Below are positions 133 to 18,995 of a DNA stretch of 52,161 nucleotides, in pieces. The stretch is from Acidimicrobiaceae bacterium (GTDB taxonomy: Bacteria > Actinomycetota > Acidimicrobiia > Acidimicrobiales > RAAP-2). A model generated the notes under the pieces. The model was given only the letters and a program-made list of their open reading frames with translations, had not been told where the DNA came from and did not search any database. The stretch covers positions 1-52,161 of the forward strand of contig PMTF01000021.1 in the NCBI GenBank assembly GCA_003167415.1. Reading direction: 5' to 3'. Positions within the stretch are counted from its first letter, which is position 1, and every line of letters starts with the position of its first letter. Both the position numbers and the translations under genes were made by a program.

Positions 133-375
133 ATCCCCAGCGACATCCATCCGATGCACAGGTTTGGGACAATCACTCCCATCACCGAATTCTCCAGTCG
201 GCTGCAAGGTAGCGATGATGCGCGAATGTCGATCAATGACGCTTTCATGAGAAATTTCAACGATCCCATTGCTCCAGCCGCCGGTCGGAGATTGTGTGCG
301 TCGGCCCTCCGGCACACAGACATAGAACGACCCACTAGCCGGGATGATTGACATTCGACACTTGCGAATTCTGGA
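133..375. other. Intergenic stretch containing repeat B1
   Basis: No convincing gene is visible between the partial left-edge gene and the convergent lipoprotein gene. The only recognisable element is the type B repeat at 279-313. The open frame at 154-351 runs through this repeat and has no ribosome binding site, so it was not called. Confidence 0.5.
279..313 (+). repeat. Type B array repeat (copy B1)
   Basis: 35-nt copy of the array repeat. It has GTCGGAG near the left and a terminal GTCGG-CCCT-CCGGC hairpin, where the stem is kept by a G-T wobble. It lies between the left-edge gene and the lipoprotein gene. Confidence 0.75.
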
Positions 376-918
376 TTACTTGATGAATCGAAATGAATTG
401 AAAACCGCCTGCGTCACTGAGTTCGTCCGCGCGTTCACCATGATCTCGTAGATCGTGCTGTTCTTTAGGACCACGAGCGCATAAACGACTCCCGAACACG
501 AACCGGCTTGAGTCGAACAAGGGACTGCATCAGTCGCCGCCGGAAATCCCTGCCAGGTGATCATATGAGCGTCCTGCGACGGGGGAAGGAAACTGCGCAA
601 GACCGGATTAACCCGAGTTCGTGGAACCGCATCCGCCAACTCGTAGACGAAGGCGTCAACATTGCGACTGGTCCAGCGCGAAAACATATGAATTCCCGGG
701 CCATTCTTCGTAGGTGCCAGATCGGCTGGATCGAATTCGTCGGCCTGGACTTTTAGTCCACTCGGTGCCTTGAGAAAGGACAAGGCAAATTGATGTCCCG
801 GTGGTCCGTGGACTGTCGGAGCCAGAATGCTCACTGTGGACGGAGATGAGCATCCGGCCAAGAGCACTCCGAAGGCCAGAAGCAGCGCCGGAGTCCTTGC
901 GATACGGATCGCCTTCAT
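376..918 (-). CDS. Predicted lipoprotein of unknown function
   Basis: A 180-residue protein with a clear lipoprotein signal. There is a basic start (MKAIRIARTP), a hydrophobic stretch, and the lipobox LLAGC with the lipidated Cys at residue 23. After cleavage it should be anchored to the outer face of the cytoplasmic membrane. The mature part has two cysteines (CSTQAGSC) that could form a short disulfide loop, and ends in a hydrophobic strand followed by FNSFRFIK. No family is recognised. It is the only gene between repeats B1 and A1 and is transcribed against the repeat direction. No clear Shine-Dalgarno sequence was identified. Confidence 0.75.
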   Translation of the reverse strand: MKAIRIARTPALLLAFGVLLAGCSSPSTVSILAPTVHGPPGHQFALSFLKAPSGLKVQADEFDPADLAPTKNGPGIHMFSRWTSRNVDAFVYELADAVPRTRVNPVLRSFLPPSQDAHMITWQGFPAATDAVPCSTQAGSCSGVVYALVVLKNSTIYEIMVNARTNSVTQAVFNSFRFIK

Positions 919-955
919 CGAATCAGCCTATGAAACTTCTTTCCATTCAGGTAGT

Positions 956-997
956 CGCCAGTGCAAGGTTGCACTCCTGTCACGTCGGGCCTCCGAC
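956..997 (+). repeat. Type A array repeat (copy A1)
   Basis: Near-consensus 42-nt copy. The left arm forms a perfect 7-bp hairpin (AGTGCAA-gg-TTGCACT) and the right arm forms GTCGG-gcct-CCGAC. It lies between divergent genes, and the long open frame from GTG at 961 runs through it. Confidence 0.9.
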
Positions 998-1023
998 TTT
1001 CAACGCAGGGCTGCATCCGCGCG

Positions 1024-1707
1024 ATGAACGCGATAGATAATCTGGCGTCTATGGGAAGGGTTCAGGATGGCACGGTCTACCTCTCTCTTGAACACCAGAA
1101 CGACAACGAGTGTTTTTGGAGCGGCTCGTGCCAGTTTCACGACAATTCACCTGACGAGGACGGTCCAACATTCTCGGACGCTAGCGATGCCGTTGATTGG
1201 TGGCGATCGCGCGGCGCCAAGACGATACTCATTCGCCTTGACTTCAGCGAGTACTTGTGGGCCGGAGAAGGCTCTCCACCAGAAGATTGCGCAGCGATGC
1301 CAACTTTCGACGCGACAGATCCACGTGGTCGACCCGAAGGTGCAAAAAGTACATTTGAGGAACATGATCGAGTCGAGGCTGTTCGAGCGAACATCGAGCT
1401 AGCCGCCGCCGCCATCGAAGAAGGACGTCGATTGTCGGTCCGCCGAGAGTCCGAAGGGCTGTCAGTCGACGAACTTGCGGATCGCATTGGAGCGACTCCC
1501 CAGTGGCTCTTCGATGTGGAGTCAGGGAAGTCGACTTTTGAGGTCACTTTGACCGAATGGATCAACCTCGTTTGGGCAACTCGCCCAGGGTGGCCTGATG
1601 AAATGAGCACGGTCAAGCCCCGTCGATTTGGATGGGTTGCCAGGCAGGGTCAGTTCCTATCTCAAGCTGAGAAGTTAGTGAACGCGTCGATCAACCTCGA
1701 GGATTGA
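1024..1707 (+). CDS. Hypothetical protein with XRE-like helix-turn-helix segment
   Basis: A 227-residue protein from the ATG at 1024. The frame is open from GTG 961, but that extension consists of repeat A1, so the later start is preferred. The ribosome binding site is weak, and ATG 1051 is an alternative. The N-terminal half is acidic and Trp-rich (VDWWRSRGAKT). Around residues 140-175 the sequence RRESEGLSVDELADRIG followed by TPQWLFDVESGKSTF has the spacing of an XRE/Cro-type helix-turn-helix, so DNA binding is possible. A C-terminal tail of about 50 residues follows. It is the only gene between A1 and B2. Function unknown; the regulator idea is inference. Confidence 0.7.
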   Translation: MNAIDNLASMGRVQDGTVYLSLEHQNDNECFWSGSCQFHDNSPDEDGPTFSDASDAVDWWRSRGAKTILIRLDFSEYLWAGEGSPPEDCAAMPTFDATDPRGRPEGAKSTFEEHDRVEAVRANIELAAAAIEEGRRLSVRRESEGLSVDELADRIGATPQWLFDVESGKSTFEVTLTEWINLVWATRPGWPDEMSTVKPRRFGWVARQGQFLSQAEKLVNASINLED

Positions 1708-1708
1708 C

Positions 1709-1743
1709 AGACAGTCGGAGATTGTGCAGGTCGGCCCATCGAC
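1709..1743 (+). repeat. Type B array repeat (copy B2)
   Basis: 35-nt copy starting two nucleotides after the stop codon of the preceding gene. The left end is diverged (AGACAGTCGGAG) and the right hairpin is GTCGG-ccca-TCGAC, paired through a wobble. Confidence 0.75.
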
Positions 1744-1789
1744 ATGGGATAACCGAACGACATGATGCTCGCAGGACTACTTTGAAGTC

Positions 1790-3055
1790 ATGCACGCTCG
1801 AACTGCCGTGATTTCCCTGGCAATTCTTGTCCTTGGAGTGGGTTTGTTCTTTGCAGGTAGAGCGAGTGTTTCGAACGCTCCAAATTCGGCCTCAAATTCT
1901 GCGGAATCAACCGTCGTCAACGCTTCATTTAGTCCACTATCGGTTGATTTCACCTCCTTGACGACGGGGTGGGCACTGGGTACAACCCCATGTCACAAAG
2001 ACTCTGTTTGTTTGTCACTTAGTAAGACCACGAATGCTGGTCGTTCGTGGACAGTAAGTCCACTTCCGCAATCGCTCCTACACCTTGCCGATCGCAAAGT
2101 TGATGGAACACCATCGATTCAAAACGACTCACTCGATGACAATGGTCAACTAAGCATGAACGTTCGCTTCGCCAACGCCAATGACGGCTGGATATATGGT
2201 TCGCTTGAGATCCCTCCCAAAGTGAGCGATGAGCCCACGGGAGCTTTCGAACCGATCCTTTGGTCTACCCACGATGGAGGACTCGTATGGAAGTCTCAGA
2301 GGCAATCATGGATTTACTACGAAGGAACCGTTCTTGATCTTGAAGTGACGGCCGACACTGTCTACCTCATGGCGATGAACAAATCCTTCAATGTCACCGT
2401 CGAGAGTTCGCCCGTCAGTAGAGATCGCTGGCGCGTTTCTGACTCGAGGGGTCTTTACACGCCCGCCGGTGGCGGGTTTCTTTCAGGCACAATTGTTTTT
2501 TCGGGATCTCGCGGGTGGCTCGCCGAAGGCAATGATCGAGGCGTCAGTGGCAGCGCTCAACTATCGAAGAATGGCAAGTGGGTACCGTGGACTTCACCTT
2601 GTTATTCCGTCGGAAATAGTTTGGCCGTGCCTGCCGCCGCGACATCGAACGATCTATTCGCTGAGTGCCATATGGGCGGCTTTGCGTCTCCCTTGTCGAA
2701 AGCTGCTCCGCGAGGAGCAACTTGGGGCTCGACTTGGCTGTACAAGTCAGTCAACGCGGGACGGACCTTCACGGCGGTGACTGAGCTTGGGCCGCAAAGC
2801 CAATACTTTGGACCCGAACTCGCAGTATCGAGCTCTGGAACAATTCTCATTACCAAGAGCAACCCCCAGAATCAAAACTTGTTGGCCAGTTTCGACACCG
2901 GTCGCCACTGGTCGGTGGTGTACTCGGGGAACGTAATTTTCATTCACTTCATTAATTCCAACGAAGGAGTCGTCCTCGATGAGCCTACCCACGGCCCAAA
3001 TCGCCTGATTATGACGTTTGATGGTGGTCACATTTGGTTGCCAATACCTTTCTAG
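1790..3055 (+). CDS. Secreted or membrane-anchored beta-propeller protein with BNR/Ycf48-like repeats
   Basis: A 421-residue protein with an N-terminal hydrophobic segment (residues 6-24) that could be a signal peptide or anchor, then a Ser/Asn-rich linker. The rest contains repeated Asp-box-like motifs of the sialidase/Ycf48 type: TTNAGRSWT, STHDGGLVWK, SVNAGRTF, SFDTGRHWSV and TFDGGHIWLPI near the end. Each typically marks a turn between strands of a propeller blade. Such propellers outside the membrane usually bind proteins or glycans. No sialidase catalytic residues were identified, so an enzyme activity is not claimed. It is one of two genes between repeats B2 and B3, the only interval with more than one gene. 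Confidence 0.8.
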   Translation: MHARTAVISLAILVLGVGLFFAGRASVSNAPNSASNSAESTVVNASFSPLSVDFTSLTTGWALGTTPCHKDSVCLSLSKTTNAGRSWTVSPLPQSLLHLADRKVDGTPSIQNDSLDDNGQLSMNVRFANANDGWIYGSLEIPPKVSDEPTGAFEPILWSTHDGGLVWKSQRQSWIYYEGTVLDLEVTADTVYLMAMNKSFNVTVESSPVSRDRWRVSDSRGLYTPAGGGFLSGTIVFSGSRGWLAEGNDRGVSGSAQLSKNGKWVPWTSPCYSVGNSLAVPAAATSNDLFAECHMGGFASPLSKAAPRGATWGSTWLYKSVNAGRTFTAVTELGPQSQYFGPELAVSSSGTILITKSNPQNQNLLASFDTGRHWSVVYSGNVIFIHFINSNEGVVLDEPTHGPNRLIMTFDGGHIWLPIPF

Positions 3056-3283
3056 GAGACCTCAGCGGATGCCGTGATGTCGCCTCGATCCCTAAGGACG
3101 CCCGTTCATTGAAGTCCAAGCCGTGATCGGGATCGAAGGAGCCGAACGAGGTAACCATATGAAAACAAGAGAGTTTGTTAGTTGGAGTGATAAATAGTCA
3201 CTTGCCGACCGAGTCACCTTTCATTGCTAGAACAGTTCAATGTGGTTGCGCCCTACACGTCTCGAGCCAGGGACTCTCCCGGC
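3056..3283. other. Intergenic stretch with no recognised element
   Basis: About 230 nt between the propeller gene and the DUF167 gene. The lower-GC stretch near 3160-3200 (ATATGAAAAC and GAGTTTGTTAG) could hold a promoter, but no convincing -35/-10 pair or hairpin was identified. Confidence 0.3.
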
Positions 3284-3556
3284 ATGATCCGATTTTCCGT
3301 ACGGGTTCATCCGGGGTCGCCCACGAGCAGCGTTGGTGGCACCTACGACGGCGCTCTCCAGGTGCGCGTGCGGGCCCGGGCTATCGATCACGCAGCCACG
3401 AACGAAGTGTGCGCCGTACTCGCCGACGCCTTCGACGTTCGCCCCGGTGCCGTACAGTGCGTACGAGGTGCACGTTCTCGAACGAAACTGATCGCCATTG
3501 AGGGCAACGACGACGTCCTGACGGCCCAGCTCAGCACTCTGCTGTCGTCAACCTAG
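3284..3556 (+). CDS. DUF167/YggU-family protein
   Basis: A 90-residue protein from ATG 3284. The frame is open further upstream to 3224 but the extra residues do not fit the family. The sequence follows the DUF167 pattern: RVHPGSPTSSVGG at the start, LQVRVRARAIDHAATNEV in the middle, then the basic motif CVRGARSRTKLIAIEG. In typical members the middle motif reads APPxDGKAN; here it is ARAIDHAATN, a divergent version. These small cytoplasmic proteins are widely conserved and have no assigned function. The next features are the adjacent repeats B3 and A2. Confidence 0.85.
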   Translation: MIRFSVRVHPGSPTSSVGGTYDGALQVRVRARAIDHAATNEVCAVLADAFDVRPGAVQCVRGARSRTKLIAIEGNDDVLTAQLSTLLSST

Positions 3557-3705
3557 GGCGCCAGCAGTTGGCTTACCGTAGGCCTTGATTAATGAAGTGT
3601 CGCTAGCGACGCAGCACTAGTTGGACGAGAAATCGCAAGGTCGATTGGTGCTGGATCCATGGCTGATTCAGCCAATGGCTTCAGGAGATGTTCCAATCGG
3701 TCAAA

Positions 3706-3740
3706 CGCCAGTCGGAGATTGTGTGGGTCGGTCCGCAGAG
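3706..3740 (+). repeat. Type B array repeat (copy B3)
   Basis: 35-nt copy with a consensus left end (CGCCAGTCGGAGATTGT). The right stem is partly lost (GTCGG-tccg-CAGAG). It sits 25 nt upstream of A2. Confidence 0.8.
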
Positions 3741-3765
3741 CAGAACCCGCACGGTCCAGCCCAGC

Positions 3766-3807
3766 CGCCAGTGCAAGGTTGCATTCCTTTCACGTCGGGG
3801 CGCCGAC
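3766..3807 (+). repeat. Type A array repeat (copy A2)
   Basis: 42-nt copy. The left hairpin is AGTGCAA-gg-TTGCATT with one wobble. The right hairpin is GTCGG-ggcg-CCGAC: the loop is changed but the stem is intact, which suggests that pairing is conserved. Confidence 0.9.
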
Positions 3808-3957
3808 ATTGTGCATGACGTTCACGTCATTTCACGCGAAAAGCGCCAGCGATTAACTCTCATTGAAGAGTGAGAGATTTGCACTGTTGTTGCTCCTTCA
3901 AGTCCGTTACCATGCCCTTATTGATGGCATGATCCTGCCTGAAAGCGAAGGAGTGTC

Positions 3958-4506
3958 ATGAGACGTCCATTGATGCGATTGTCGGCAGTCTTAGCCGCAT
4001 CCGTCCTGTGTTTTGCGTTTGGAATTCCCTCGCTCGGTTTAGGAAGCACTGCAAACGTTTCATCTGGTGCCACAATTCCAGTTTGCGGTGGAGGAAACTT
4101 TGTGGGCGGTTGGGTAGGTAGGAATGGTGCAACGGGAACCTCGATTATGGATCTGGCATTCATCAATGACGGACACCTCACGTGCCGACTCACTGGCTAT
4201 CCCACAATTCAGGGCTATCGCAACGGTCGCGAGTACCCTCTAGCGGCTGGACATCTGAAAGATCAACCATTCGATATTTCTCCCACCATCGTGGCACCGA
4301 GAATGAGCGCTGAGATGGTCTTGACCTCTTCGGCCTCTTGCAATGCCTTGAATACTGGCAACCAGACGGCAATCAAGAAAGTGATTGCCAAAAACACATA
4401 TACCGTGAGTGTCAAATTCCCACATTCGAATGACCCGATCTACATCTACGGTCTGAGTATCGACGTAGCATGCGGTCTCAATATCACTGAATTGGGTTGG
4501 CGATAG
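3958..4506 (+). CDS. Secreted DUF4232-like protein
   Basis: A 182-residue protein with a signal peptide of about 30 residues (MRRPLMRLSAVLAASVLCFAF followed by a small-residue region). Translation from ATG 3958 is supported by AAGGAG four nucleotides upstream. The mature domain fits the actinobacterial DUF4232 pattern: an early Cys (PVCGGG), a strand with an asparagine-like MDLAFINDG, then CRLTGYPTIQGYRNGR. Two late cysteines (SSASCNALN and DVACGLN) could pair. The protein at 46510-47112 shares this pattern, so the window carries two members. Function unknown; location is probably extracellular. It is the only gene between A2 and A3. Confidence 0.8.
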   Translation: MRRPLMRLSAVLAASVLCFAFGIPSLGLGSTANVSSGATIPVCGGGNFVGGWVGRNGATGTSIMDLAFINDGHLTCRLTGYPTIQGYRNGREYPLAAGHLKDQPFDISPTIVAPRMSAEMVLTSSASCNALNTGNQTAIKKVIAKNTYTVSVKFPHSNDPIYIYGLSIDVACGLNITELGWR

Positions 4507-4953
4507 CGGTCCGGTCTCGCGCCGACTTTGCGGTCAATTCAACCTTTTAAATCTCCTGTGAAAGGTGACATCTCCAATTCGTCTGGCAGCAGAGCTCAAC
4601 CCTTACGGACTAGCCCTAACGCCAGTGCAAGGTTGCAGAACTGTCACGTCGGGCCTCCGAGACGAAATGATTCGGCTCGCAACGAATCAGACGGAAGTTA
4701 CGAGACGCACTTCAAATGAGGAAGCCTCACATATTAATTGCAAGCCGATATAACCCCCCGAAGTTTTGACTTCGAATTGAAAGCCGTTAATGAAACCCTG
4801 TTGGTTGGTCACAAGCCAGGCCCAAGGGATCGGCTTCGCGATCACTTGAATCCACGGCCTATACGTATTAACAAGAAGATTGCTCCGCTGGCGGAGGGCG
4901 ACTAATTGAGGTGTAATGGTGATGTTCGAAGAGGCGAGGAAAGATGGGGGGCC
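4507..4953. other. Intergenic stretch containing repeat A3
   Basis: A gap of about 450 nt. The only recognised element is repeat A3. The 136-residue reverse frame at 4687-5097 overlaps the start of the methyltransferase gene and has no supporting signal. The 100 nt before the methyltransferase start probably contain its promoter, but none stands out. Confidence 0.5.
4620..4661 (+). repeat. Type A array repeat (copy A3)
   Basis: 42-nt copy. The left hairpin is TGCAA-gg-TTGCA. The right stem is GTCGG/CCGAG, losing the last pair. Confidence 0.9.
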
Positions 4954-5805
4954 ATGGCCAGCAAGCAGGAATGGGGCCAATCTTTTGCATCGGCGTCGAC
5001 CAGTGCCATGAGATTCTATGACGAGATCATGGTTCCGCGAATGTTCGAACCATGGGCCGAACTCATGCTCGACCAGATGAAACTTCAGAGTGGACAAGCC
5101 GTTCTTGATGTCGCCTGTGGTCCGGGAACGGTGACTCGACTCGCCGCGCTTCGCGTCGGCCCCTCAGGACGTGTCACGGGTTGCGATCTGAGTCCGGCGA
5201 TGCTCGACCTCGCGCGCTCGAAGATCTCGGTTCGTGCCAGCGCACCAACCGAATACTTAGAATGCCCGGCTGGTTCGCTCCGCGTCCCCGACGACGCCTT
5301 TGACTTGGTGACCTGTCAACAAGGCCTACAGTTCTTCCCCGACCGACCGGCAGCTCTGGCCGAGATGCGACGAGCCTTGCGTCCCGGCGGACAGTTGGGC
5401 ATTGCCATTTGGTGCGCCATTGAGGACTGTCCGCCGTTCGCGGCCCTGGCGGATGCCTTGGGACGGGTGCTAGGCGCCGAAACCGCAGATGCTTACGAGG
5501 CCGGTCCCTGGGGGTTTAGTGATTCGGATTCGTTGGCTCGACTCGTCAAAGACAGTGGGTTCACGAATGTGAAAGTGCGTAGATATGAGTTGCCGTTAAT
5601 ATTTGAAGGCGGCCCGGGTCAACTCTTGCTAACGCTACGCGCAGCCTCGGTGGCGACAACCCTCGCCCAGCTTCCCGACGCGGATCAATTGGCACTCGCT
5701 GAAGCGGTGGAAGAGGCCGCTCGCCCGATCACCTTTGACGGAATCGTGCGCTCACACGCAACTTCGCACATCCTGACTGCGCAAGTCGGCGATAAGCGAG
5801 GTTGA
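4954..5805 (+). CDS. Class I SAM-dependent methyltransferase (UbiE/MenG-like)
   Basis: A 283-residue protein from ATG 4954, preceded by a purine-rich GAGGCGAGGAAAG stretch. The SAM-binding motif I is VLDVACGPGTVTR near residues 50-62. It is followed by an acidic motif II (VTGCDLSPAMLDLAR), a post-II PDDAFDLVTCQQGLQFFPD, and EMRRALRPGGQLGIA, the classic order of a Rossmann-fold methyltransferase of the UbiE type. The substrate cannot be read from sequence. The frame is open upstream to 4906, but those residues look non-coding. It is the only gene between A3 and A4, so it fits the single-gene cargo pattern of the array. Confidence 0.9.
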   Translation: MASKQEWGQSFASASTSAMRFYDEIMVPRMFEPWAELMLDQMKLQSGQAVLDVACGPGTVTRLAALRVGPSGRVTGCDLSPAMLDLARSKISVRASAPTEYLECPAGSLRVPDDAFDLVTCQQGLQFFPDRPAALAEMRRALRPGGQLGIAIWCAIEDCPPFAALADALGRVLGAETADAYEAGPWGFSDSDSLARLVKDSGFTNVKVRRYELPLIFEGGPGQLLLTLRAASVATTLAQLPDADQLALAEAVEEAARPITFDGIVRSHATSHILTAQVGDKRG

Positions 5806-5824
5806 CCATACCATCTAACTCAGG

Positions 5825-5860
5825 CGCTAGAGCAAGGTTGCATTTCTGTCACGTCGGGCC
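5825..5860 (+). repeat. Type A array repeat (copy A4), degenerate right end
   Basis: The left part matches type A (CGCTAGAGCAAGGTTGCAT) up to CACGTCGGGCC, but the right stem CCGAC is replaced by ACAAAGG. It starts 20 nt after the methyltransferase stop codon. Confidence 0.75.
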
Positions 5861-5916
5861 ACAAAGGGGGAACCCACGCGTTCGAAGTTACGTGCCATCG
5901 CTCAACTCGCGCGAAA

Positions 5917-6423
5917 CTACGCACATTCAACATCGGAACCCTGACCAAGTCTCGCGTACTGAGGAATTGGACGAGGCCTCGAACCAATGGGTCCGGTGGC
6001 GTCACCGTCGTAGTAAACGCCAGTGACCACTTCGACCAAATGTTTCGACTCGTGCGGTTCAAGCGATGCCAAGGTGAATGCTGCTGATCCTCGATACATA
6101 TGGTGCCGTTGTCCCGTTCCCGACGTCACTATGACCGCGCAGGTCACGGACTTTGTGACGCGACCTTCGTTTTTGACCCAGACGTCGACGTCGACGGTTC
6201 CGAGTTGGTCAACGATCTGCATGGTGTTGGACCCAAAGGCCGCCTGAAGTGAACTGGGCCGCTCGACGGTTGGCGATGTTGGTCCGAGCGACCAAATCGT
6301 AACGAGCGTCACCAGGGCTCCCAGGGCGGCAGCCACGATGAGACTTGTCGGCCACACCCAACTTCGGTATTTGCCGGTTCCTCGGACCGATTTAGGCTTG
6401 GAGAAATGGTCCGTCAGTGTCAC
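5917..6423 (-). CDS. Single-pass membrane protein with small extracytoplasmic domain, unknown function
   Basis: A 168-residue protein starting at GTG 6423, with a perfect AAGGAGGT Shine-Dalgarno sequence three nucleotides upstream (6427-6434). A short cytoplasmic head is followed by a transmembrane segment (about residues 24-46, SWVWPTSLIVAAALGALVTLVTIW) and an outside domain. The domain reads VDVDVWVKNEGRVTKSVTCAVIV, then AAFTLASLEPHESKHLVEVV, which has the strand spacing of a small Ig-like or FxLYD-type fold. Two cysteines (VTCAV and VECA at the end) could bond. It is the only gene between A4 and B4 and is opposite to the repeat direction. Confidence 0.75.
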   Translation of the reverse strand: MTLTDHFSKPKSVRGTGKYRSWVWPTSLIVAAALGALVTLVTIWSLGPTSPTVERPSSLQAAFGSNTMQIVDQLGTVDVDVWVKNEGRVTKSVTCAVIVTSGTGQRHHMYRGSAAFTLASLEPHESKHLVEVVTGVYYDGDATGPIGSRPRPIPQYARLGQGSDVECA

Positions 6424-6594
6424 GAGACCTCCTTATCGGGGTTCGCCCAATAATAATTGCCGGATGATTCAGTTGCGAATGACAGAAATCTCAAATTGTA
6501 CGCAGGATGGACGCGCCAAATAGAAAAACTTCAACGACTTGCCACAAGCACGGTTCACAGGCCTATCGGCGTTTAAGAGTGCCGAACCTGGAGA

Positions 6595-6629
6595 CGCCAG
6601 TCGGAGATTGTGTCGGTCGGTCCTCTGAC
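6595..6629 (+). repeat. Type B array repeat (copy B4)
   Basis: 35-nt near-consensus copy, CGCCAGTCGGAGATTGTGTC then GTCGG-tcct-CTGAC with one wobble pair. Confidence 0.85.
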
Positions 6630-6696
6630 AAACACAGCTCTACGACCGCGTGTAGTCCGAGCTATTCGACACTCTTCCGCTAACTCTCGATGCCGT

Positions 6697-7512
6697 CTAC
6701 TCAATCGCCGCCTGGAGATTCTGACCCACTTCCCCCAAGTACTGAATAATCCGCTCAATGTCTCGAGAATGGCCCTCATCCCGCAGCGCAATGTACGCCA
6801 GATCACCCGCAGCGGCATACTCTTCGATGCCTGACCGCGAAATCTCAGCCCGCTCGACTACCGCATCAATGAGACCTGCGCGTTGCTCGTAGCCGTAACT
6901 ATCGAGTAGGAGACGTAAGCGCGCGACTTCGTCAATTGTGGGATTGCACCCCATCTTCGCCTTGAGCTCGGGAGGACCCAGTGGCACCCACTGCCAGGCG
7001 AGGAAAGCGATCTCCTCTCGCACGGAACCCGGACCAGCGCCGTCCCAGTCGATCATCCCGAGTAGCCGATCTCCCTTGAAAACGGCGTTATAGGGTGCGA
7101 AGTCGTGGTGACAGATGATCTCATCAGGTAACAAGTTTCGCGGTCGGTACTGCCAGTGCGCGACCTCGTTAGGTACGAAGTCGGATACCGCGTGGTGGTA
7201 GGCCGCAACTGCTCGTCCGACTTCGGCGAGCAGCCCGTCAGACCACAGTGAGCCCGGCCAGTGAGCCACTGAGGCTGAGCTGTCTCCCTCGATGTAGCTA
7301 AGGACCTCTCGGCCTTGTTCATCGAATCCGCGCGGCTCCGGAACGAGCAGAAAACCGCGGTTGCGGACGTGCAGTAGAAGTCGCTGCACGTCCCCGCTCC
7401 ACGGCTTCCCCGGTCGACGAACGGTATCTCCTGCGCGCATGACAATGCTGAGCTTGCCCCCGGGAAGCCGTTCTTCTGAGGTGGCCGGCGTTACGTCGTC
7501 ATGCCTTGTCAT
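6697..7512 (-). CDS. Aminoglycoside phosphotransferase (APH)-family kinase
   Basis: A 271-residue protein with the APH/choline-kinase fold. The catalytic loop is HHDFAPYN (His136, Asp137, Asn142), and the metal-binding motif IDWDGAGPG follows (Asp155). These are the Brenner and DFG-equivalent motifs. The fold transfers phosphate from ATP to a small-molecule hydroxyl. Only a specific assay could show whether the substrate is an antibiotic, homoserine, choline or another metabolite. ATG 7512 was chosen; GTG 7551 would add 13 residues. It is the only gene between B4 and A5. Together with the AadA-like, CPT-like and Nudix genes it gives the array a small-molecule-modification flavour. Confidence 0.85.
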   Translation of the reverse strand: MTRHDDVTPATSEERLPGGKLSIVMRAGDTVRRPGKPWSGDVQRLLLHVRNRGFLLVPEPRGFDEQGREVLSYIEGDSSASVAHWPGSLWSDGLLAEVGRAVAAYHHAVSDFVPNEVAHWQYRPRNLLPDEIICHHDFAPYNAVFKGDRLLGMIDWDGAGPGSVREEIAFLAWQWVPLGPPELKAKMGCNPTIDEVARLRLLLDSYGYEQRAGLIDAVVERAEISRSGIEEYAAAGDLAYIALRDEGHSRDIERIIQYLGEVGQNLQAAIE

Positions 7513-7551
7513 GGTCTGAGTCTCGTCTAATACTCGCAGCAACGCCATCAC

Positions 7552-8426: not shown

Positions 8427-8463
8427 GCCAGTCAAACTTTCCTTCCGTCGAAGATACTGTTCC

Positions 8464-11316: not shown

Positions 11317-11358
11317 CGCCAGTGCAAGGTTGCACTTCTGTTACGTCGGGCCTCCGAA
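11317..11358 (+). repeat. Type A array repeat (copy A9)
   Basis: 42-nt copy. The left hairpin is perfect (AGTGCAA-gg-TTGCACT) and the right stem GTCGG/CCGAA has lost its last pair. Confidence 0.9.
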
Positions 11359-11391
11359 ACCAGCAGCTTGGCCCGTCGTGGCACCTGTAAA

Positions 11392-11988
11392 TCAAAACAG
11401 ATCGTGCGTCTTTTGGTTTCCCAGGACGGCCTGGTGTATTTGGCGAGCGAGTACATCCGGCGGGGTCGCCGTCGTGTCGAGAAAGAGGTCATAGGTCATC
11501 TCGTTGTGCACGACTGCGAACGTCCCCGATGCGAATCCGAGAAAGCGATCACCGCGAGCAGTTTCGCGTCGGATGAGTTCGTCAAAGTCACAATTCACTC
11601 CGATCCAAAATGCGTCGACAAGCGTGCCCTTCGCCTGCTCTCGAATCATCGCGTCAAGGATCACGTGGTCAATGACCAGATCAATACCGTCTCTCCTCAT
11701 ATCGGCCCAGAACCTATGAGCGAGTCGCGTTACTGTGTGGAACTCGTGGTCATATTCAGGTATCCAGCTGGGCGCCGGACCATCCCCCTGTACGATGCGC
11801 ATTCCCGACTCAGACGCCGGGGAACCGTCGTCGCCTGGGAACGTGACGTGGGAGTCTGGCCACCCCCCAATGAACACATCGAGGCCAGAGGCGAACAGAG
11901 GACGGGGCCAGAGATCTTGGAGCGCCGAGATGATTGACGACTTCCCTGAACTGCTTGGCCCGTTGAGCACAATGAGTGACGCCGACAT
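11392..11988 (-). CDS. Chloramphenicol phosphotransferase (CPT)-like P-loop kinase
   Basis: A 198-residue protein that begins SASLIVLNGPSSSGKSS, the Walker A form typical of the CPT family (LNGPSSxGKS), followed by ALQDLWPRPLFASGLDVFIGG, in which Asp36 matches the catalytic base of the Streptomyces venezuelae enzyme. That enzyme phosphorylates chloramphenicol in its producer, but most homologues have unknown substrates. ATG 11988 is chosen because the longer frame (to 12087) crosses repeat A10. It is the only gene between A9 and A10 and runs against the repeats. Confidence 0.83.
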   Translation of the reverse strand: MSASLIVLNGPSSSGKSSIISALQDLWPRPLFASGLDVFIGGWPDSHVTFPGDDGSPASESGMRIVQGDGPAPSWIPEYDHEFHTVTRLAHRFWADMRRDGIDLVIDHVILDAMIREQAKGTLVDAFWIGVNCDFDELIRRETARGDRFLGFASGTFAVVHNEMTYDLFLDTTATPPDVLARQIHQAVLGNQKTHDLF

Positions 11989-12024
11989 CCTGCGATTCTG
12001 GACGATCGGTCCTCGACTGTCAAC

Positions 12025-12066
12025 CGCCAGTGTGTGGTGGCGGAACGGTGGCGTCGGGCCTCCGAC
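12025..12066 (+). repeat. Type A array repeat (copy A10)
   Basis: 42-nt copy with the TGG variant: CGCCA-8 nt-TGGCG makes a perfect 5-bp left hairpin, replacing the TGCAA/TTGCA stem of other copies. The right hairpin is consensus. Confidence 0.9.
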
Positions 12067-12114
12067 ACCAGTGCCGGGCGTCATCAAACGCGAGCAGGCA
12101 ACTTACTTCCTTGG

Positions 12115-14064
12115 TCAAGGCGATTCTCCCTCCATCCGGTGTGGATTGTCGAACCAGAGCAACAACTCTTCGACGTCGAATGGCTTGGTGAGGTAGCCGG
12201 AGGCACCCATCTCCAAGATCCGCCGGATTTGACCGGGACTGGCGTCGGCACTCACCACCACCGTGGGGATTCTCCTGGTGATTGACTCCGCCCGCAGCCG
12301 CCGCAGGACTTCTTCACCGGACATGTCGGGCAGGTGAAGGTCCAAGAGAATCAAACCGGGCCGAGACGAGGTGATGAGTTCCAGCGCAAGCCCACCCTGC
12401 ATCGCGTGAATCAGGGTGATCCCTTGACGACGGGCCGCCAGTTGCTCCATCAGTCGCACGTTTGCGAGGTTGTCCTCGATGTAGACAACGGTCAACGCCG
12501 CCGAACGACCTGGCACCGCGGCAGTCGCACTCACGGTTCTCGCCTCCGGCGAACCTTGCTCAACGGTTCTCGATTCAACGCCTCCTGCCAGGGGCAGCAG
12601 AACCGTGAAACTGCTGCCGACGCCGGCAGTTGATTCAACTTCAATGCGGCCACCCATCAAGTGGATGAGTCGCTGCGACAGAGCCAAACCGACTCCGGTT
12701 CCCTCCACGGCGGTGGCTTCTTGACCCAGCCGGTCGAAAGGGGTAAACAACCGTTCCAATTCCTCAGAACCGATTCCAATGCCCTTGTCGGAGACGGTAA
12801 TGGCAAACTCGCCGTTGGGCCGAGTGTCACAGGTCAACCTAATCTCACCGTCGTTGCGGTTGTACTTAATCGCGTTCGATACGAAATTCAATAGCACCTG
12901 CTTGAAGCGCTGTCGATCGGCCAGCACGTGGACGTGGCAGACGTCTCCCGTTGGCATTAGCACCGTAAGATTACGAGCCGCGACCAGGGGTACCACGAGA
13001 TCCATCACCTCGTCAATCACGTCCGACACCAACACGGGTTCCGAGGAGAGTGCCAGTTGTCCCGAGTCGATTCCGGAGATGTCCAGCACCTCATTGATCA
13101 GATCCAGCAGGTGCTGCCCGCCTCGAATGATCTGGCGCACGGACTCGTGCTGATTGTCACTCAGATCATCCATCCCCAACAGTTGTGCGAACCCCAGGAT
13201 CGCGTTCATCGGTGTTCGCAACTCGTGGCTCATCCGTGACAGGAACTCGGTCTTGGCCGCATTGGCCCGCTCCGCCTCCGCACGAGCGGACGCCTCGGCT
13301 CGTTGAGCATTCTTCCGAACGGTAATGTCGCTCACCACGATCGCCAGTAGCGGCGGATCTCCCGGCACGGTCGCCACCTGGCTGTACCGAACCCACAGCC
13401 AGCGAACCTCGCCGTCGGGGCGCAGAATTCGGCACTCAAACTCCAGTCGGGAAGAAGTATCAGCCTTCGCCATAGTTTCGCGCAGTTCTGCGACGTCGTC
13501 TGGGTGAATCACGTCAAAGAATATTTCTGGATCGGCAAGAACTTGGTCAGCGGTCAACCCATAGATCTTCTCGACGGCAGGGCTCACGTAAACGTACCGA
13601 ACAGGTGTCAGAGTTCGCAGCATGAATACCTCGTCGATGCAGTTCACCAATTGACGAAATCGCCCCTCGCTCTCTTGCTGCGACATGCGGTTCGCCACCT
13701 CGACGGTTAGGTCATGGACCATCCCGGTGAACATCGGCTTGCCCTCGAAGACAGACTCCTCGACCGAGAGGTGCATTGGAAAGGCAGTGCCGCCCTTTCG
13801 CAGCCCCGTGACCTCTCGATCCACACCAAGGACATGGGCGATATCCGACGCCCAGTATTTGGCCAAGTGGCCGTCGCGCCCACTGTGATCCGGCTCGGGC
13901 ATGAGCATCGACACATTGTGGCCAACGACCTCGCTGGACTTGTAACCAAACAGGCGTTCGGCTATTGGACTGAACGTCTGGATTATGTCATGTGAATCAA
14001 TCGTGATAGTGCCCGCCACCGATGATTCGACTTCTGAATTCAGGTTTTCCGGTGAATGTGTCAC
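12115..14064 (-). CDS. Hybrid sensor histidine kinase, PAS-PAS-HisKA-HATPase-REC, FixL-like first PAS
   Basis: A 649-residue cytoplasmic protein with no membrane segment. Domains: PAS 1 (about 15-120), PAS 2 (about 135-250), a short coiled coil, HisKA with phospho-acceptor His280 (SRMSHELRTP), HATPase with N box (Asn397), G1 (DKGIGI) and G2 (GTGVGL), and a C-terminal receiver with Asp575, Glu530/Asp531 and Lys627. PAS 1 strongly resembles the FixL haem domain (VSMLMPEP, REVTGLRKGGTAFPMHL, FTGMVHDLT). However, at the place of the FixL haem-ligand histidine it has Arg63 (SGRDG), so oxygen sensing through haem is doubtful. No separate output regulator is adjacent. It is the only gene between A10 and B6. 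Confidence 0.92.
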   Translation of the reverse strand: MTHSPENLNSEVESSVAGTITIDSHDIIQTFSPIAERLFGYKSSEVVGHNVSMLMPEPDHSGRDGHLAKYWASDIAHVLGVDREVTGLRKGGTAFPMHLSVEESVFEGKPMFTGMVHDLTVEVANRMSQQESEGRFRQLVNCIDEVFMLRTLTPVRYVYVSPAVEKIYGLTADQVLADPEIFFDVIHPDDVAELRETMAKADTSSRLEFECRILRPDGEVRWLWVRYSQVATVPGDPPLLAIVVSDITVRKNAQRAEASARAEAERANAAKTEFLSRMSHELRTPMNAILGFAQLLGMDDLSDNQHESVRQIIRGGQHLLDLINEVLDISGIDSGQLALSSEPVLVSDVIDEVMDLVVPLVAARNLTVLMPTGDVCHVHVLADRQRFKQVLLNFVSNAIKYNRNDGEIRLTCDTRPNGEFAITVSDKGIGIGSEELERLFTPFDRLGQEATAVEGTGVGLALSQRLIHLMGGRIEVESTAGVGSSFTVLLPLAGGVESRTVEQGSPEARTVSATAAVPGRSAALTVVYIEDNLANVRLMEQLAARRQGITLIHAMQGGLALELITSSRPGLILLDLHLPDMSGEEVLRRLRAESITRRIPTVVVSADASPGQIRRILEMGASGYLTKPFDVEELLLWFDNPHRMEGESP

Positions 14065-14679
14065 TGCTCTCCCGGGAGGGTCAGTTCGGTCCCCTCTTTT
14101 AGGTTAGATGCACGATCGTGCCTTCCTTCGGGATGTTGGGCACAACTTGTGAAAGAACTCCCAAACAGTTGCGATTGAATCAAGAGGGTCTCACTTTCAA
14201 ACCCAGTGGCGTGGAAATATCACTGCTGTGGCCAACCCCCGACGCGTTCGTCGCGATGGCTGGGCGGAAGGTTGAGATCATTAGACGGCTTTCCCATCAA
14301 TGAACGAATTCGAAGATTGCTGTTCGATCGCTTTTATCCGTCCGTCCATTCATTGATTCGCCAGTCGCAGATTGTTGAAGTCGGCCCTCCGACATCTTCA
14401 GCTTTCAGACGGATGTCCAATTCCGTTTCAGGCAACTCGACTTACGGTTATTCTCACCACCTGCACGATGAACCCATCGGGATATATGGTGACTGCGTCA
14501 CCGGGTTCTTGGTGATTGCTAGGAATTCCGCGAAGATCGCTCCATCCCAGAGTTCACTACGATGCCGGAGCCTGACCTCTCAGGAATCGTCGTTCGTAGA
14601 GATGGTGCGGATGTGATATATCCTGCTGTCTAATGGGCTTTCTCACTTTCGGTGATGTGCGGCAACAATTGTTCCCGTC
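14065..14679. other. Intergenic stretch of about 615 nt containing repeat B6
   Basis: Between the divergent kinase and GGDEF genes. Only repeat B6 at 14359-14393 is recognised. Open frames of 61 and 136 residues (14118-14303, 14206-14616) lack family resemblance and ribosome binding sites, and the longer one runs through the repeat. The stretch may hold divergent promoters or a decayed gene. Confidence 0.4.
14359..14393 (+). repeat. Type B array repeat (copy B6)
   Basis: 35-nt copy, CGCCAGTCGCAGATTGTTGAA then a perfect GTCGG-ccct-CCGAC hairpin. Confidence 0.85.
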
Positions 14680-15837
14680 ATGACCGGCGGGGCAGATCCG
14701 CCGTCTTCGACAAACGAGTCGGAGTCGCGAATGAGTGCATCGAGTTACGTTGACGAAGCCGTGCGGACCGCTGAACGAATCGCTCTCGGTAATGCGCTGG
14801 AAGATCGCACCGACGACATTGTCCGCTGGTGTCAGGAAATGTTCGCAAAGCATTCGGGGGCCGCGCTCGAAGAGGTGTCTGTAGCGCAGTCCGGATGGGC
14901 TACCACGTCGCTGGCGGTGCATTCGATCGCCAACTGGCTCAAGAGCGGAGTTTCGGCCAATCATCTTGACCGCGAACGGATTGCCTCGTTGGGAAAAGCG
15001 GCGGCGAGGCGGCGAAGGGCACCCGTGATGCCAGCCCGAACCAACGAAGAACTCGATGCTGACCTCGGAGCGGGTCTCCTCTCGCAAACCGAGTCGCCTT
15101 TGCAGTTGTCGGTCGCTCTCATCACCCGGCTCAACCTCTGGTGGAGCGAAGCGACTCGCGCCGTACTGGCCGAGGAGGCCAGTCGATTGAAGATCAGCGC
15201 CGCCACGCTGGACGAATCGTGCGAAATGGTGGTAAAGAGTTGTCACTCGAGTCTGGTGCGAATGGCGAAGCAGTTCGACGCAGAGTTCAAGTCACTCTAC
15301 GAGCGGCTGTCAAACCTTGCGCTCCACGACTCGCTGACGGGCCTGGTCAATCGCGCCACGTTGATCGAATGGCTCGACCGAGTCATTGCTCGATTGGCGC
15401 GGCAGCCCGGAGGGATAGTCGTGGCCTTCATGGACTTGGACAACTTCAAGGAAGTGAATGATGTATACGGACACGCCTGCGGGGACGATGTGCTCGTCGA
15501 GCTGGCGTCGCGTCTGCTCGCCCAGATGCGCCCCTCGGACATGGTCGCCCGTATCGGCGGTGATGAATTCGTCGCTGTTTTCGGAGACCTGTCTGAACCG
15601 CTAGACGCCGCTCAGAAGCTGGCAGAGCGCTTGCACTCCATCGTCACAGAGCCAGTAATAGTCAATGGAATCGATCTTCACATGACTATCAGCATCGGGA
15701 TCGCCGTCGTTCTGGGACCGGAGTGCCATTCCGATGAGGTCCTCGCCCAGGCCGACGCGGCCATGTACTCGGTGAAGAGAACAGGACTTAACAAGATCAT
15801 CACAGTGGACGGGGGATCACTGAATCGACCTGTTTAG
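14680..15837 (+). CDS. Diguanylate cyclase (GGDEF domain)
   Basis: A 385-residue cytoplasmic protein. The N-terminal 205 residues are helical with no recognised sensor domain. The GGDEF domain begins at LALHDSLTGLVNR and contains MDLDNFKEVND, GHACGDD and the active-site GGDEF at 293-297. RPSD (284-287), five residues before it, forms the product-inhibition I-site, so the enzyme should make cyclic di-GMP and be feedback regulated. No EAL domain is present. The start is uncertain: ATG 14680 or ATG 14731 (preceded by GGAG). It is the only gene between B6 and A11. A second GGDEF protein lies at 21356-22630. Confidence 0.9.
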   Translation: MTGGADPPSSTNESESRMSASSYVDEAVRTAERIALGNALEDRTDDIVRWCQEMFAKHSGAALEEVSVAQSGWATTSLAVHSIANWLKSGVSANHLDRERIASLGKAAARRRRAPVMPARTNEELDADLGAGLLSQTESPLQLSVALITRLNLWWSEATRAVLAEEASRLKISAATLDESCEMVVKSCHSSLVRMAKQFDAEFKSLYERLSNLALHDSLTGLVNRATLIEWLDRVIARLARQPGGIVVAFMDLDNFKEVNDVYGHACGDDVLVELASRLLAQMRPSDMVARIGGDEFVAVFGDLSEPLDAAQKLAERLHSIVTEPVIVNGIDLHMTISIGIAVVLGPECHSDEVLAQADAAMYSVKRTGLNKIITVDGGSLNRPV

Positions 15838-15985
15838 AAGGGGCGATTTGGCACCACTTTTCTACCGAGTGAAGAACACCGCGAATCGTCAATCAATCCG
15901 AATTCACAACTGAGAATCTCATCGTCGATCTCAGAGGACTGATGCGTCGCCACTCCGACACGAGCTCAGCTTCAGTTGTTCAACC

Positions 15986-16026
15986 GCCAATGATAGGTTG
16001 CACTCCTGTCACGTGAACCTCCGACA
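15986..16026 (+). repeat. Type A array repeat (copy A11), 1-nt deletion
   Basis: 41-nt copy. The left arm is CGCCAATGATAGGTTGCAC. The right arm is altered to CACGTGAACCTCCGAC, so the terminal hairpin is weakened. Confidence 0.8.
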
Positions 16027-16099
16027 CTTGGCTGAATTTCGCCTTGAGAGACCTTCCACGTTCACAGCACTACGCAAATGAATGACGCAAAACCGACGT

Positions 16100-17182
16100 T
16101 CAGCGCATCGCCCCTCGCCACGCAGCCAACACCGACGAAGCGAGAACGGCTTGACCGACGGCTGTCGGGTGGAAGGACCCCGATTCAATTACCGGAGCGA
16201 TATCGGCCAAAATTAGCCCGTTAATGTCAGGAGACGTTCCGGTCGCGCAGTTCAAGGGCGCGAAACCGTCATTCGACGGCGTCAGCGACACATTGAGATA
16301 TCCGTCCCGCCGCAGAGTCTCCGCGACGACGGAAGTTTCGAGTTGAACGTAACTATTGATGTCTCCCAATGCGTAACTGTTGGCGTTGCTGAATGCGGGA
16401 TAAATGGGTGCGCTTATGCCAACAGTGGTCGTGGGGCCCAGCGACGGAAGAGGCGTCGCAGAGAGGAGACAGGCGCCCACTCCCGGAGAACCCATTAAAG
16501 CCGGGTACTGAACGACCAAGAGCCGTGGGCCGGCTTCCCGGTTCTTGACTGCGCCTTCGGAGTGGAGTACGTGCACGTACAACGCGGACAGGCGCGTCTC
16601 GAAAGGTGACGGCATGGAAAGGGGGAAAATCAACGCTCCCAAGGGAATCGTCACGCCACCGGTCACGGGATTGATATCCGCACCAAGGAGTTTGGCCGCG
16701 CCGCTGATTGCGTTCGCGCAAAGCTTCGGACCGCTCACGCCGGGAAGATACTCGATCGTTGGCGATGTTGTTGAGTTGACCGCCCCCACACAGGCTGTAA
16801 TCAGACCAAAAAATGGCAGGTCGTTTCCCCCAGCCGTGACTGTCGTGATCTCGACGTGATGCAAGGTTCTCGACGGCAAGGACGAGACTTGTTGGTCGAT
16901 TTGCGCGATGGTCGCTCCGGAGCACGCAAGGAATTTCAACTTCACGTCACCGAAGCGACGTGCGACGATCTCCGGGTAGGACTTGGGTGATCTATCGCAC
17001 GATCCGGAACCGGGAAGAAACGGACCGAGACCCTCGCCCGCAGAGTACGAATCGCCCAGGGCCAGATAGATCGGCTTCGGATGCGGTTTAAGCGCGCCCA
17101 CTGACTGCCCCGCTGGAGCCAAGACCATCGTGACAAGTGCAAACAGGATTGCTGTTCGGACAAGCGCAGTGCTGCGATTCAC
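16100..17182 (-). CDS. Secreted SGNH/GDSL-family esterase or lipase
   Basis: A 360-residue protein with a signal peptide (about 30 residues, ending near SVGA). Block I is LALGDSYSAGEG with nucleophile Ser45. A later ACSGAT supplies the oxyanion glycine, block III is AGGND with Asn120, and His338 lies in SFHPTAVGQ. The usual Asp three residues before the His is a Gly, as in Streptomyces esterases that use a Ser-His dyad. Several Cys residues suggest disulfides. It should hydrolyse esters outside the cell; the substrate is not known. It is the only gene between A11 and A12. Confidence 0.88.
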   Translation of the reverse strand: MNRSTALVRTAILFALVTMVLAPAGQSVGALKPHPKPIYLALGDSYSAGEGLGPFLPGSGSCDRSPKSYPEIVARRFGDVKLKFLACSGATIAQIDQQVSSLPSRTLHHVEITTVTAGGNDLPFFGLITACVGAVNSTTSPTIEYLPGVSGPKLCANAISGAAKLLGADINPVTGGVTIPLGALIFPLSMPSPFETRLSALYVHVLHSEGAVKNREAGPRLLVVQYPALMGSPGVGACLLSATPLPSLGPTTTVGISAPIYPAFSNANSYALGDINSYVQLETSVVAETLRRDGYLNVSLTPSNDGFAPLNCATGTSPDINGLILADIAPVIESGSFHPTAVGQAVLASSVLAAWRGAMR

Positions 17183-17227
17183 CGTTAAACCTCAAAATGA
17201 GAGACTGGCGCCCACGTTACAGTAAGT

Positions 17228-17269
17228 CGCCAGTGCTTGGTGGCACTTCTGTTGCGTCGGGCCTCCGAC
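17228..17269 (+). repeat. Type A array repeat (copy A12)
   Basis: 42-nt copy. Left hairpin AGTGC-6 nt-GCACT, or alternatively GCCA/TGGC. Right hairpin is consensus. Confidence 0.9.
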
Positions 17270-17340
17270 ACCAACTTCAACAACGAAGTCGCGCTGGGTC
17301 GGGCGCACTCAAACAGATTGAGCATCCTGCCGCGCGAGTC

Positions 17341-18867
17341 TCAGGAGGGTCGCATGGTGCCTTCGCGTAGATAGCGCGCGTGCCACGAGAGCGCCTCCTC
17401 GATCATGTGCGGGGTGTGTTTGCCGGGGGCCGTGGCGCTCGCGCGGTCGAAATAGTCCTGCAGCATCGGCCGGTAGTCGGGGTGCGCGCAGTTGTCGATG
17501 ATCTTCTGAGCGCGTCGGCGCGGCGCCAAGCCGCGCAGGTCCGCTACGCCCCATTCGGTGATGACGACGTGAACGTCGTGCTCGGTATGGTCCACGTGGC
17601 TGACCATGGGAACTATTGAGGAGATCACGCCATTCTTGGCGGTTGAAGGCGTGAGAAACATGGCAATGTAGGCGTTGCGGGCGAAGTCACCAGAGCCGCC
17701 GATGCCGTTCATGATGCTCGAGCCCATGACGTGGGTGGAGTTGATGTTGCCGTAGATGTCGGCTTCGATGGCGCCGTTCATCGCCAAACACCCGAGCCGG
17801 CGTATCACCTCGGGGTGATTGCTGATCTCCTGGGGTCGAAGGATTATCCGGTCGTGGTACTCGGCGATGTTGGCGTGTAGGTCGGCCGCTCCCTCCTCGC
17901 TGAGCGAGAAGGCGGTAGCCGAGATGGTGCTCATCGTGCCCGAGTTCAGCAACGCCAGCATGCCGTCCTGGATGACCTCCGTATACGCGGTGAGCGAATG
18001 GAACGGCCCACCGTCGAGTCCGCGAAGGACGGCGTTGGCGATGTTGCCGACGCCCGACTGCAGGGGCAGGAGTGACGCGGGCAGGCGCCCTCCCTTCACC
18101 TCGTGGGCCAAGAACTCCAAGAGGTGTTCGGCGATTCGCTCCGAGGTGTCGTCGACCGGTTTGAATGCCGTGTTGCGATCAGGGGCGTTCGTCTCGACGA
18201 CGGCCACAATCTTCTCTGGTGGACAATGCAAGTACGGAACGCCGATGCGGTCGGACGCTTGGAGGATTTGGATGGGCTTGCGAAAGGGCGGCAGTGCGGT
18301 GCCGTAATAGATGTCGTGCATCCCCTCGAGCGCGACGGGCTGCCACGCGTTCACTTCGAGGATGACGCGGTCGGCCATGTCAATCCACGTCTTGTTATTG
18401 CCGACCGAGGACGACGGAATCAGTTCACCGTCCGCAGTGATACCGGACACCTCAACGACCGCGACGTCGAGGTGTCCGAAGGCGCCCTCCCAGACCATCT
18501 GCGCGACGTGCGAGAGGTGCATATCGAGGTAGTCGAGCAGTCCGGCATTGATCTTGGCGCGACTCACCGGGTCAGACTGGTATGGCATGCGCATGTCGAT
18601 CGCGTCGACCGCTGCGAGTGCACCGTCAAGCTCGGGAGCCGTCGACGCCCCTGTCCAGACACTCACCGCGAAACGGTCGCCTCGTTTGGCCGCGTCTTCG
18701 ACTCGTCGCACGAGAGCACCGGGTACCTTCTTGGGATAGCCCGCCCCCGTAAAGCCACTCATCCCGACATTGTCGCCCGGTCGTATGAATTCGGCTGCCT
18801 CGTCGGGCGACATGACCCGACCCGCAATTGACGCACTCTTGACTCGAATTTGGTCTGCGGGGACCAT
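17341..18867 (-). CDS. Acetyl-CoA hydrolase/CoA-transferase (succinyl-CoA:acetate CoA-transferase type)
   Basis: A 508-residue protein of the Cat1/AarC/ScpC family. The catalytic glutamate is Glu297 in LTAYTEVIQD, and the CoA-binding region MNGAIEADIYGNINSTHVMGSS then IGGSGDFARNA is intact. Family members move CoA between succinate, acetate or propionate, linking the TCA cycle to acetate use; some act as acetyl-CoA hydrolases. Full length. The GC-rich codon use looks more like the right half of the window than its neighbours, which hints at a resident chromosomal gene rather than cargo. It is the only gene between A12 and A13. Confidence 0.93.
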   Translation of the reverse strand: MVPADQIRVKSASIAGRVMSPDEAAEFIRPGDNVGMSGFTGAGYPKKVPGALVRRVEDAAKRGDRFAVSVWTGASTAPELDGALAAVDAIDMRMPYQSDPVSRAKINAGLLDYLDMHLSHVAQMVWEGAFGHLDVAVVEVSGITADGELIPSSSVGNNKTWIDMADRVILEVNAWQPVALEGMHDIYYGTALPPFRKPIQILQASDRIGVPYLHCPPEKIVAVVETNAPDRNTAFKPVDDTSERIAEHLLEFLAHEVKGGRLPASLLPLQSGVGNIANAVLRGLDGGPFHSLTAYTEVIQDGMLALLNSGTMSTISATAFSLSEEGAADLHANIAEYHDRIILRPQEISNHPEVIRRLGCLAMNGAIEADIYGNINSTHVMGSSIMNGIGGSGDFARNAYIAMFLTPSTAKNGVISSIVPMVSHVDHTEHDVHVVITEWGVADLRGLAPRRRAQKIIDNCAHPDYRPMLQDYFDRASATAPGKHTPHMIEEALSWHARYLREGTMRPS

Positions 18868-18953
18868 TTCGAAAGCCTAACGCTGCCGGATTATGCCTGA
18901 CTTAGCCGACCATTCGCCAACCTAGCGAATCACTCGGATTACTTCTATCAAGT

Positions 18954-18995
18954 CGCCAGTGCAAGGTGGCATTCCTGTTGCGTCGGGGCTCCGAC
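18954..18995 (+). repeat. Type A array repeat (copy A13), last clear copy
   Basis: 42-nt copy, CGCCAGTGCAAGGTGGCAT then CGTCGG-ggct-CCGAC. No clear copy was seen to the right of it. Confidence 0.9.

Follow-up and report, generated by a model that had tools for sequence, protein, structure and literature searches.

Three kinds of described system come closest to the repeats considered here: integrons, in which exchange falls after the first G of the core; Xer-dependent modules, among them dif, pdif and the hairpins of phage attP; and the repetitive extragenic palindromic (REP) elements of RAYT transposases, which are short intergenic repeats with inverted arms. The boxes of the integron attC site are given as RYYYAAC/GTTRRRY in the part of PMC3053210 drawn on here, and the cited part of PMC9024848 reports for the Actinobacteria no complete integron, one In0 and few clusters of attC sites lacking an integron integrase (CALIN). 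Our repeats, a 42-nt type A and a 35-nt type B, lie between genes in the first 19 kb of contig PMTF01000021.1 of an Acidimicrobiaceae bacterium (assembly GCA_003167415.1; the whole stretch of 52,161 nucleotides is called the window below). In the portions of the literature searched no description of this repeat family was found, and its absence is claimed for that literature only. Comparison of the sequences makes it quite likely, in our view, that the repeats are site-specific recombination sites joining mobile gene cassettes into a one-way array, integron-like in its working; we regard as real a gene-cassette system that belongs to one genus and has a joint of a new kind.

Exchange point and shared units

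Profile models built from the copies gave 378 hits (291 type A and 87 type B) in a comparison set of 42 stretches from 13 genomes, the window included, selected for holding pattern matches; loci, genomes and contigs are labelled L, G and C. Site positions are numbered with the G of GTCGG as 0. Junctions were compared in a set of 337, leaving out hits that oppose the majority direction of their locus (L128 and L153 excepted) and hits without a recognisable core, while half-site assortment and folding were studied in the 213 ungapped type A sites. The consensus of these 213 and of 48 type B sites is GTCGGSYC followed directly by TCCGACACCA. Base +5 is G in 241 of 264 type A sites and C in 63 of 73 type B sites, independently of the type of the next or previous site; since it tracks its own site type and not the neighbouring sites, it is part of the left unit. 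A homologous left unit does not make two junctions more similar than unrelated ones from +8 onwards. Identity to the left and right is 0.65 and 0.39 in the 33 left-homologous pairs, 0.43 and 0.62 in the 18 right-homologous pairs, and 0.43 and 0.42 in unrelated pairs. Judged by these alignments, the left and right halves of the repeat assort independently, and the switch is placed between +5 and +8, three bases at the centre of GTCGG-SYCT-CCGAC (GTCGGS^YC^TCCGAC). Its confinement to that interval argues against homologous recombination and against the integron point; a crossover after the first G was rejected because +5 goes with the left half of its own junction.

Whatever the site type, base +6 is T in G050 (21 of 21 scored sites), G008 (11 of 13) and G012 (9 of 11), and C in G000 (29 of 33), G005 (5 of 5), G029 (21 of 21), G051 (22 of 23) and G059 (37 of 39); in G039 it is mixed. 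Site L113_18424 has T where L157_8528 has C, despite left units that are 95.8% identical. A unit may carry T in one genome and C in another; the base seems to mark the genome and not the unit, and a genome-specific centre is what would be expected if it lay in the overlap that is exchanged or were recognised by an enzyme specific to the lineage. A +6 contrast is also seen between L115, L117 and L122 on the one side and L118-L121, L124 and L141-L144 on the other.

All-against-all comparison of the loci reveals single units common to different genomes, with different neighbours in each. The segments L121:6067-7060 and L124:11794-10802, for example, are 98.7% identical over 994 bp, and the match starts inside sites of different type, A in one genome and B in the other. 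The ends of homology were placed with high-scoring segment pairs (HSPs) of at least 200 bp and at least 80% identity that reach arrays in both loci (55 of 73, all 55 linking different genomes), five ends at locus edges being set aside. Among the 105 free ends, 49 have a site no more than 25 bp away in both loci, 18 in one locus only and 38 in neither, as against 0.3%, 11% and 89% for random placement, and orientation relative to the sites is kept in all 37 shared units that touch a site. Array flanks can be shared as well: two species have in common about 11 kb of proximal flank at 94-97% identity (L133:11120-11420 against L124, reverse), and the distal flanks of an array on contig C11 of our own genome and of one in G005 (L009:18040-19762 and L127:3-1728) are 80.6% identical in matching orientation, so some arrays occupy the same chromosomal place in different species.

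The type A site allows a stem to be drawn in which CGCCAGTGC faces TGCA..CTG..GCG and bases of the 3' arm stay unpaired; 76% of cells are paired as drawn, against 24-50% when the arms are slid, and the stem is mostly invariant. The loop-closing pair (-18,-14) is Watson-Crick in 120 of 213 sites versus 75 in shuffles, a count reached by 0 of 500 shuffles, and the alternative pair (-19,-14) likewise beats 500 of 500. Covariation was not found at the other type A stem pairs, and the left block folds with an energy no better than that of shuffles (mean z -0.22). Nor do the core arms of type A sites covary, from which we take the core to act as two half-sites meeting at the exchange point. In type B, GTCGGAG ... 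CTCCGAC form a 7-bp inverted pair, the right member beginning at the exchange point. The substrate might be a folded single strand.

A cassette would then consist of [YC]TCCGACACCA, usually one gene in either direction, and a left half-site of about 33 nt (A or B) ending in GTCGGS. A recombinase acting in trans would exchange sites at the centre of the short inverted repeat, the non-palindromic centre and the long left block presumably setting the direction. For the enzyme our guess is a tyrosine recombinase, which could be the resident pair of Xer-like proteins or an integrase of phage type working in trans.

The array in the window and its relatives

The window is contig C2 of its genome from base 1, and the array is therefore truncated by the contig end. 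The 19 repeats counted in the initial annotation (13 type A and 6 type B, 279-18995) were recovered in full by the profile search, 19 of 19 on the + strand as it had claimed, and the search agrees that no copy lies right of 19 kb. Its list of type A starts holds apart from the copy put at 15986, which begins at 15985 and is 41 nt long, and the start CGCCAGT, ascribed to both types, is correct as a consensus and literally wrong for several copies (AGACAGT at 1709, CGCCGGT at 279, CGCTAGA at 5825, TGCCAAT at 9330, CGCCATT at 10561 and CGCCAAT at 15985). Exact matches to the core GTCGG-N4-CCGAC number 8 in the window, against an expectation of 0.34, and all lie within 984-18995. Degenerate copies stand about 67 nt upstream of good ones, at 4553 as the left block of a type A site and at 15946 as a core matching in 14 of 17 letters; another core at 7571, with 11 of 17 letters a match at chance level, is hinted at only by its 69-nt spacing to the next core. 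The features are as follows.

279-313, +, type B site (profile search)
376-918, -, cassette gene, no Pfam match; homologues in L124 and L116
956-997, +, type A site (profile search)
1051-1707, +, cassette gene, 218 aa; weak helix-turn-helix match, below cut-off
1709-1743, +, type B site with AGACAGT start (profile search)
1790-3055, +, cassette gene, no Pfam match; family in 5 genomes, every member inside arrays
3706-3740, +, type B site opening a 67-nt gene-less micro-unit (profile search)
3766-3807, +, type A site (profile search)
3958-4506, +, cassette gene, DUF4232; family in 4 genomes, every member inside arrays
4553-4594, +, degenerate type A site, 67 nt ahead of the next
4620-4661, +, type A site (profile search)
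4906-5805, +, cassette gene, methyltransferase
5825-5866, +, type A site, decayed right arm (profile search)
5917-6423, -, cassette gene, no Pfam match
6595-6629, +, type B site (profile search)
6697-7551, -, cassette gene, APH-family phosphotransferase
7571-7587, +, possible degenerate core, 69 nt ahead of the next; match alone at chance level
7612-7653, +, type A site (profile search)
7943-8266, +, cassette gene, DUF2846 and BiPBP_C matches under cut-off
8394-8428, +, type B site, decayed right arm; left unit common to L156 at 92%
8464-9303, +, cassette gene, AadA-like nucleotidyltransferase
9330-9371, +, type A site (profile search)
9515-9817, -, cassette gene, no Pfam match
10034-10075, +, type A site (profile search)
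10093-10566, -, cassette gene, NUDIX
10561-10602, +, type A site, overlapping the first bases of the NUDIX open reading frame (ORF) (profile search)
10622-11173, +, cassette gene, AAA_18 P-loop protein
11317-11358, +, type A site (profile search)
11392-11988, -, cassette gene, chloramphenicol phosphotransferase-like; homologues in arrays of 2 other genomes; longer ORF open to 12087
12025-12066, +, type A site (profile search)
12115-14064, -, cassette gene, PAS hybrid histidine kinase
14359-14393, +, type B site (profile search)
14680-15837, +, cassette gene, GGDEF
15946-15962, +, degenerate core, about 67 nt ahead of the next core position
15985-16025, +, type A site, 41 nt (profile search)
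16100-17182, -, cassette gene, GDSL lipase
17228-17269, +, type A site (profile search)
17341-18867, -, cassette gene, acetyl-CoA hydrolase/transferase; 84% homologue in L118
18954-18995, +, type A site, final one of the array (profile search)

The genes at 6697-7551, 8464-9303 and 11392-11988 belong to enzyme families known from aminoglycoside and chloramphenicol modification, a function that is predicted only.

From a reading of the ORFs, nearly every unit of the window holds one gene, and the first 19 kb have a GC content of 56.7%, the remainder one of 62.2%. Over the comparison set (L128, L153 and units above 4 kb excluded from unit counts), arrays reach 24 copies in one direction, several to a genome and several of them truncated by contig ends. 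The median unit is 768 bp long; one ORF of at least 100 aa is present in 151 of 282 units and more than one in 33, and the longest ORF runs along the site direction in 101 units and opposite to it in 83. Forty-two of the 282 units (about 15%) are shorter than 120 bp, and 31 of these 42 measure 66-69 nt, variable inside and gene-less; in the window such micro-units span 3727-3794, 4581-4648, 15946-16013 and perhaps 7571-7640, and similar ones occur at many other loci. A recognisable core lies 59-73 nt upstream of 69 of 262 type A sites, versus 4-16 for equally wide windows placed further upstream. The micro-units look like units consisting of a site alone.

That the repeats form an organised array and not a REP-like element, as had been proposed subject to checks of orientation and clustering, is borne out on both counts. 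The majority direction of the own locus is followed by 365 of the 378 profile hits in the 42 loci, the copies cluster into arrays, and ten further stretches, mostly array flanks, gave a single hit. Several of the 13 opposing hits are palindromic mis-calls overlapping a good copy. An exception to an absolute one-way rule is L128 (G009:C49), with four forward and then three reverse copies in two runs facing each other. What the initial annotation missed, and what the comparisons support, is the role of the repeats as recombination joints between exchangeable units.

Elsewhere in the same genome, further copies are found on C11:1-11640 (20 of 21 profile hits in one direction, the odd one overlapping a good copy), on C27 in two groups and on C1 as two weaker copies. 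A type A pattern of 30 bases, allowing at most 2 mismatches, was present in 34 of the 61 genomes belonging to the genus and in none of the 39 from other genera of the order; it undercounts, because G045, which lacks it, was found by profile to hold sites. In a broader sample of 397 genomes from the order, 4 of the 14 belonging to the genus had the pattern, and the 383 others gave a single match, with 2 mismatches. A scan of titled genomes turned up 42 stretches, 39 titled Acidimicrobiaceae and one each titled Acidobacteria, Saccharibacteria and Actinomycetes (L076, L078 and L085). These last three carry the same sites, and since their units resemble those of the genus's arrays, either mis-binning or transfer and a wider spread is possible. 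Most titles of carriers are of metagenome-assembled genomes named palsa, bog or fen. Viral contigs gave 0 exact matches for either of two patterns.

Candidate recombinases

The IntI model TIGR02249 finds nothing above its cut-off in 100 genomes, 61 of them of the genus; the top score in the genus is 92.9 bits against a 265-bit cut-off, for a tyrosine recombinase at G008:C127:14379-14558. Three other kinds of enzyme were rejected as the common agent, each being absent from our own genome and from others among the 11 array-bearing ones: serine recombinases (PF00239, absent from 6), IS110/DEDD transposases (PF01548, absent from 8) and IS200/605 Y1 transposases (PF01797, absent from 10). The only tyrosine recombinases common to all 15 array genomes searched are two PF00589 groups, sorted by eye on score and matched range, which are probably XerC and XerD.

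A phage-type tyrosine integrase family, P0001/P0002, is represented in our own genome twice on C27 and once on C7. The two C27 integrases (L166:11827-12912 and L175:5930-7021) are 82% identical, have a similar upstream hairpin region and are transcribed away from the array; they lie beyond the proximal array ends, at 1.3 kb (from a weak 14-bit copy; 2.1 kb from a strong one) and at 2.2 kb, and because of this location the family was first taken for the cassette integrase. It is present in 27 of 61 genomes of the genus, namely 19 of 34 with the array pattern and 8 of 27 without. The array-rich G005, G034 and G050 lack it, and one of the 8 pattern-negative carriers is G045, which holds sites. 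Within 6 kb of a site stand 7 of 34 members of the family versus 1 of 27 other integrases, many of these stretches being cut by contig ends. P0001/P0002 counts as a weak candidate. Gene clusters at array edges that recur in at least 3 genomes include no recognised recombinase, as judged from sequence starts without a domain search, and ORFs of 407-656 aa that match weakly as tyrosine recombinases, seen in 3 genomes, have no obvious family in common.

Competing readings and significance

The arrays resemble sedentary chromosomal integrons and CALINs in being one-way and made of mostly one-gene units, each ended by a site with inverted repeats, and also in that units are shared between genomes, sites are alike within a lineage and GC content is lower than in the rest. 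A true integron lineage with diverged attC sites, its IntI gene lost or unassembled and the arrays thus CALINs, would share this layout, including the arrays cut by contig ends, and could accommodate the inverted pair of type B and a type A stem with unpaired bases on one arm. We nevertheless think it unlikely: none of the 100 genomes has an IntI over the cut-off, the core is GTCGGSYC-TCCGAC without RYYYAAC/GTTRRRY boxes, exchange takes place right of +5 (at GTCGGS^YC^TCCGAC), and in the type A stem, mostly invariant, only the loop-closing base covaries and folding energy does not exceed that of shuffles. Unlike integrons, moreover, the arrays occur several to a genome and have genes in both directions about equally. 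No platform was seen at the single array edge inspected, several arrays being cut by contig ends. We do not class the arrays as integrons because IntI, a GTTRRRY core and the integron exchange point were each looked for and none was found. An Xer module would draw on the only tyrosine recombinases that occur in 15 of 15 array genomes searched; to our knowledge the array core does not resemble a dif site.

Movement of the units by ordinary homologous recombination between dispersed repeats, with no dedicated recombinase, would suit repeats that are direct and similar and an enzyme that has not been found. Its breaks should fall at any point of the 42 nt, but the left block (-28 to +5) moves together with the left unit and has no excess identity in right-homologous pairs, and we hold this explanation to be very improbable. 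Still less probable is a REP-like element, or a miniature inverted-repeat transposable element (MITE), inserted between genes with a strand preference. Small size, partial palindromy and intergenic position are what such elements have, as do REP/RAYT repeats with their inverted arms; the present copies, however, are clustered in one direction with only 1 hit in the ten further stretches, the Y1 transposase is missing from the own genome and from 10 of the 11 array-bearing genomes, and insertion would not account for gene units that stop at sites in two genomes. There is scarcely any probability left for a terminator, insulator or RNA element after each gene. The inverted repeat of the core would fit one, but no T-run was seen after the core in the sequence, the longest ORF runs with the site in 101 units and against it in 83, the window has no Rfam match at gathering thresholds, and the core arms do not covary and belong to different units.

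The reading of the repeats as recombination sites between cassettes has its own difficulties. The searches singled out no recombinase and none stands consistently beside the arrays; a circular cassette was not observed; 98 of the 282 units are without an ORF of 100 aa or more; among 257 ORFs of 150 aa or more, 26 run across a site; and 38 of the 105 homology ends fall at no site in either locus. No core resembling a site appeared where the L133/L124 flank homology ends, the one array edge looked at. HSPs and pairs from related genomes are not independent, and the genomes are drafts, those of the titled relatives being metagenome assemblies.

Whether the arrays amount to a second cassette-capture system independent of integrons, with its own two-form site, a genome-specific YC exchange centre, the Xer pair or an undescribed recombinase, several arrays per genome and a range of one uncultivated genus, is for us an evenly balanced question. 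Searches based on IntI and attC would probably not report these sites. The enzyme, if found, would tell how such systems arise and would provide a new directional cassette tool. The genus titled Acidimicrobiaceae appears to do the cassette job of integrons on a large scale, and the arrays mark its points of foreign gene uptake.

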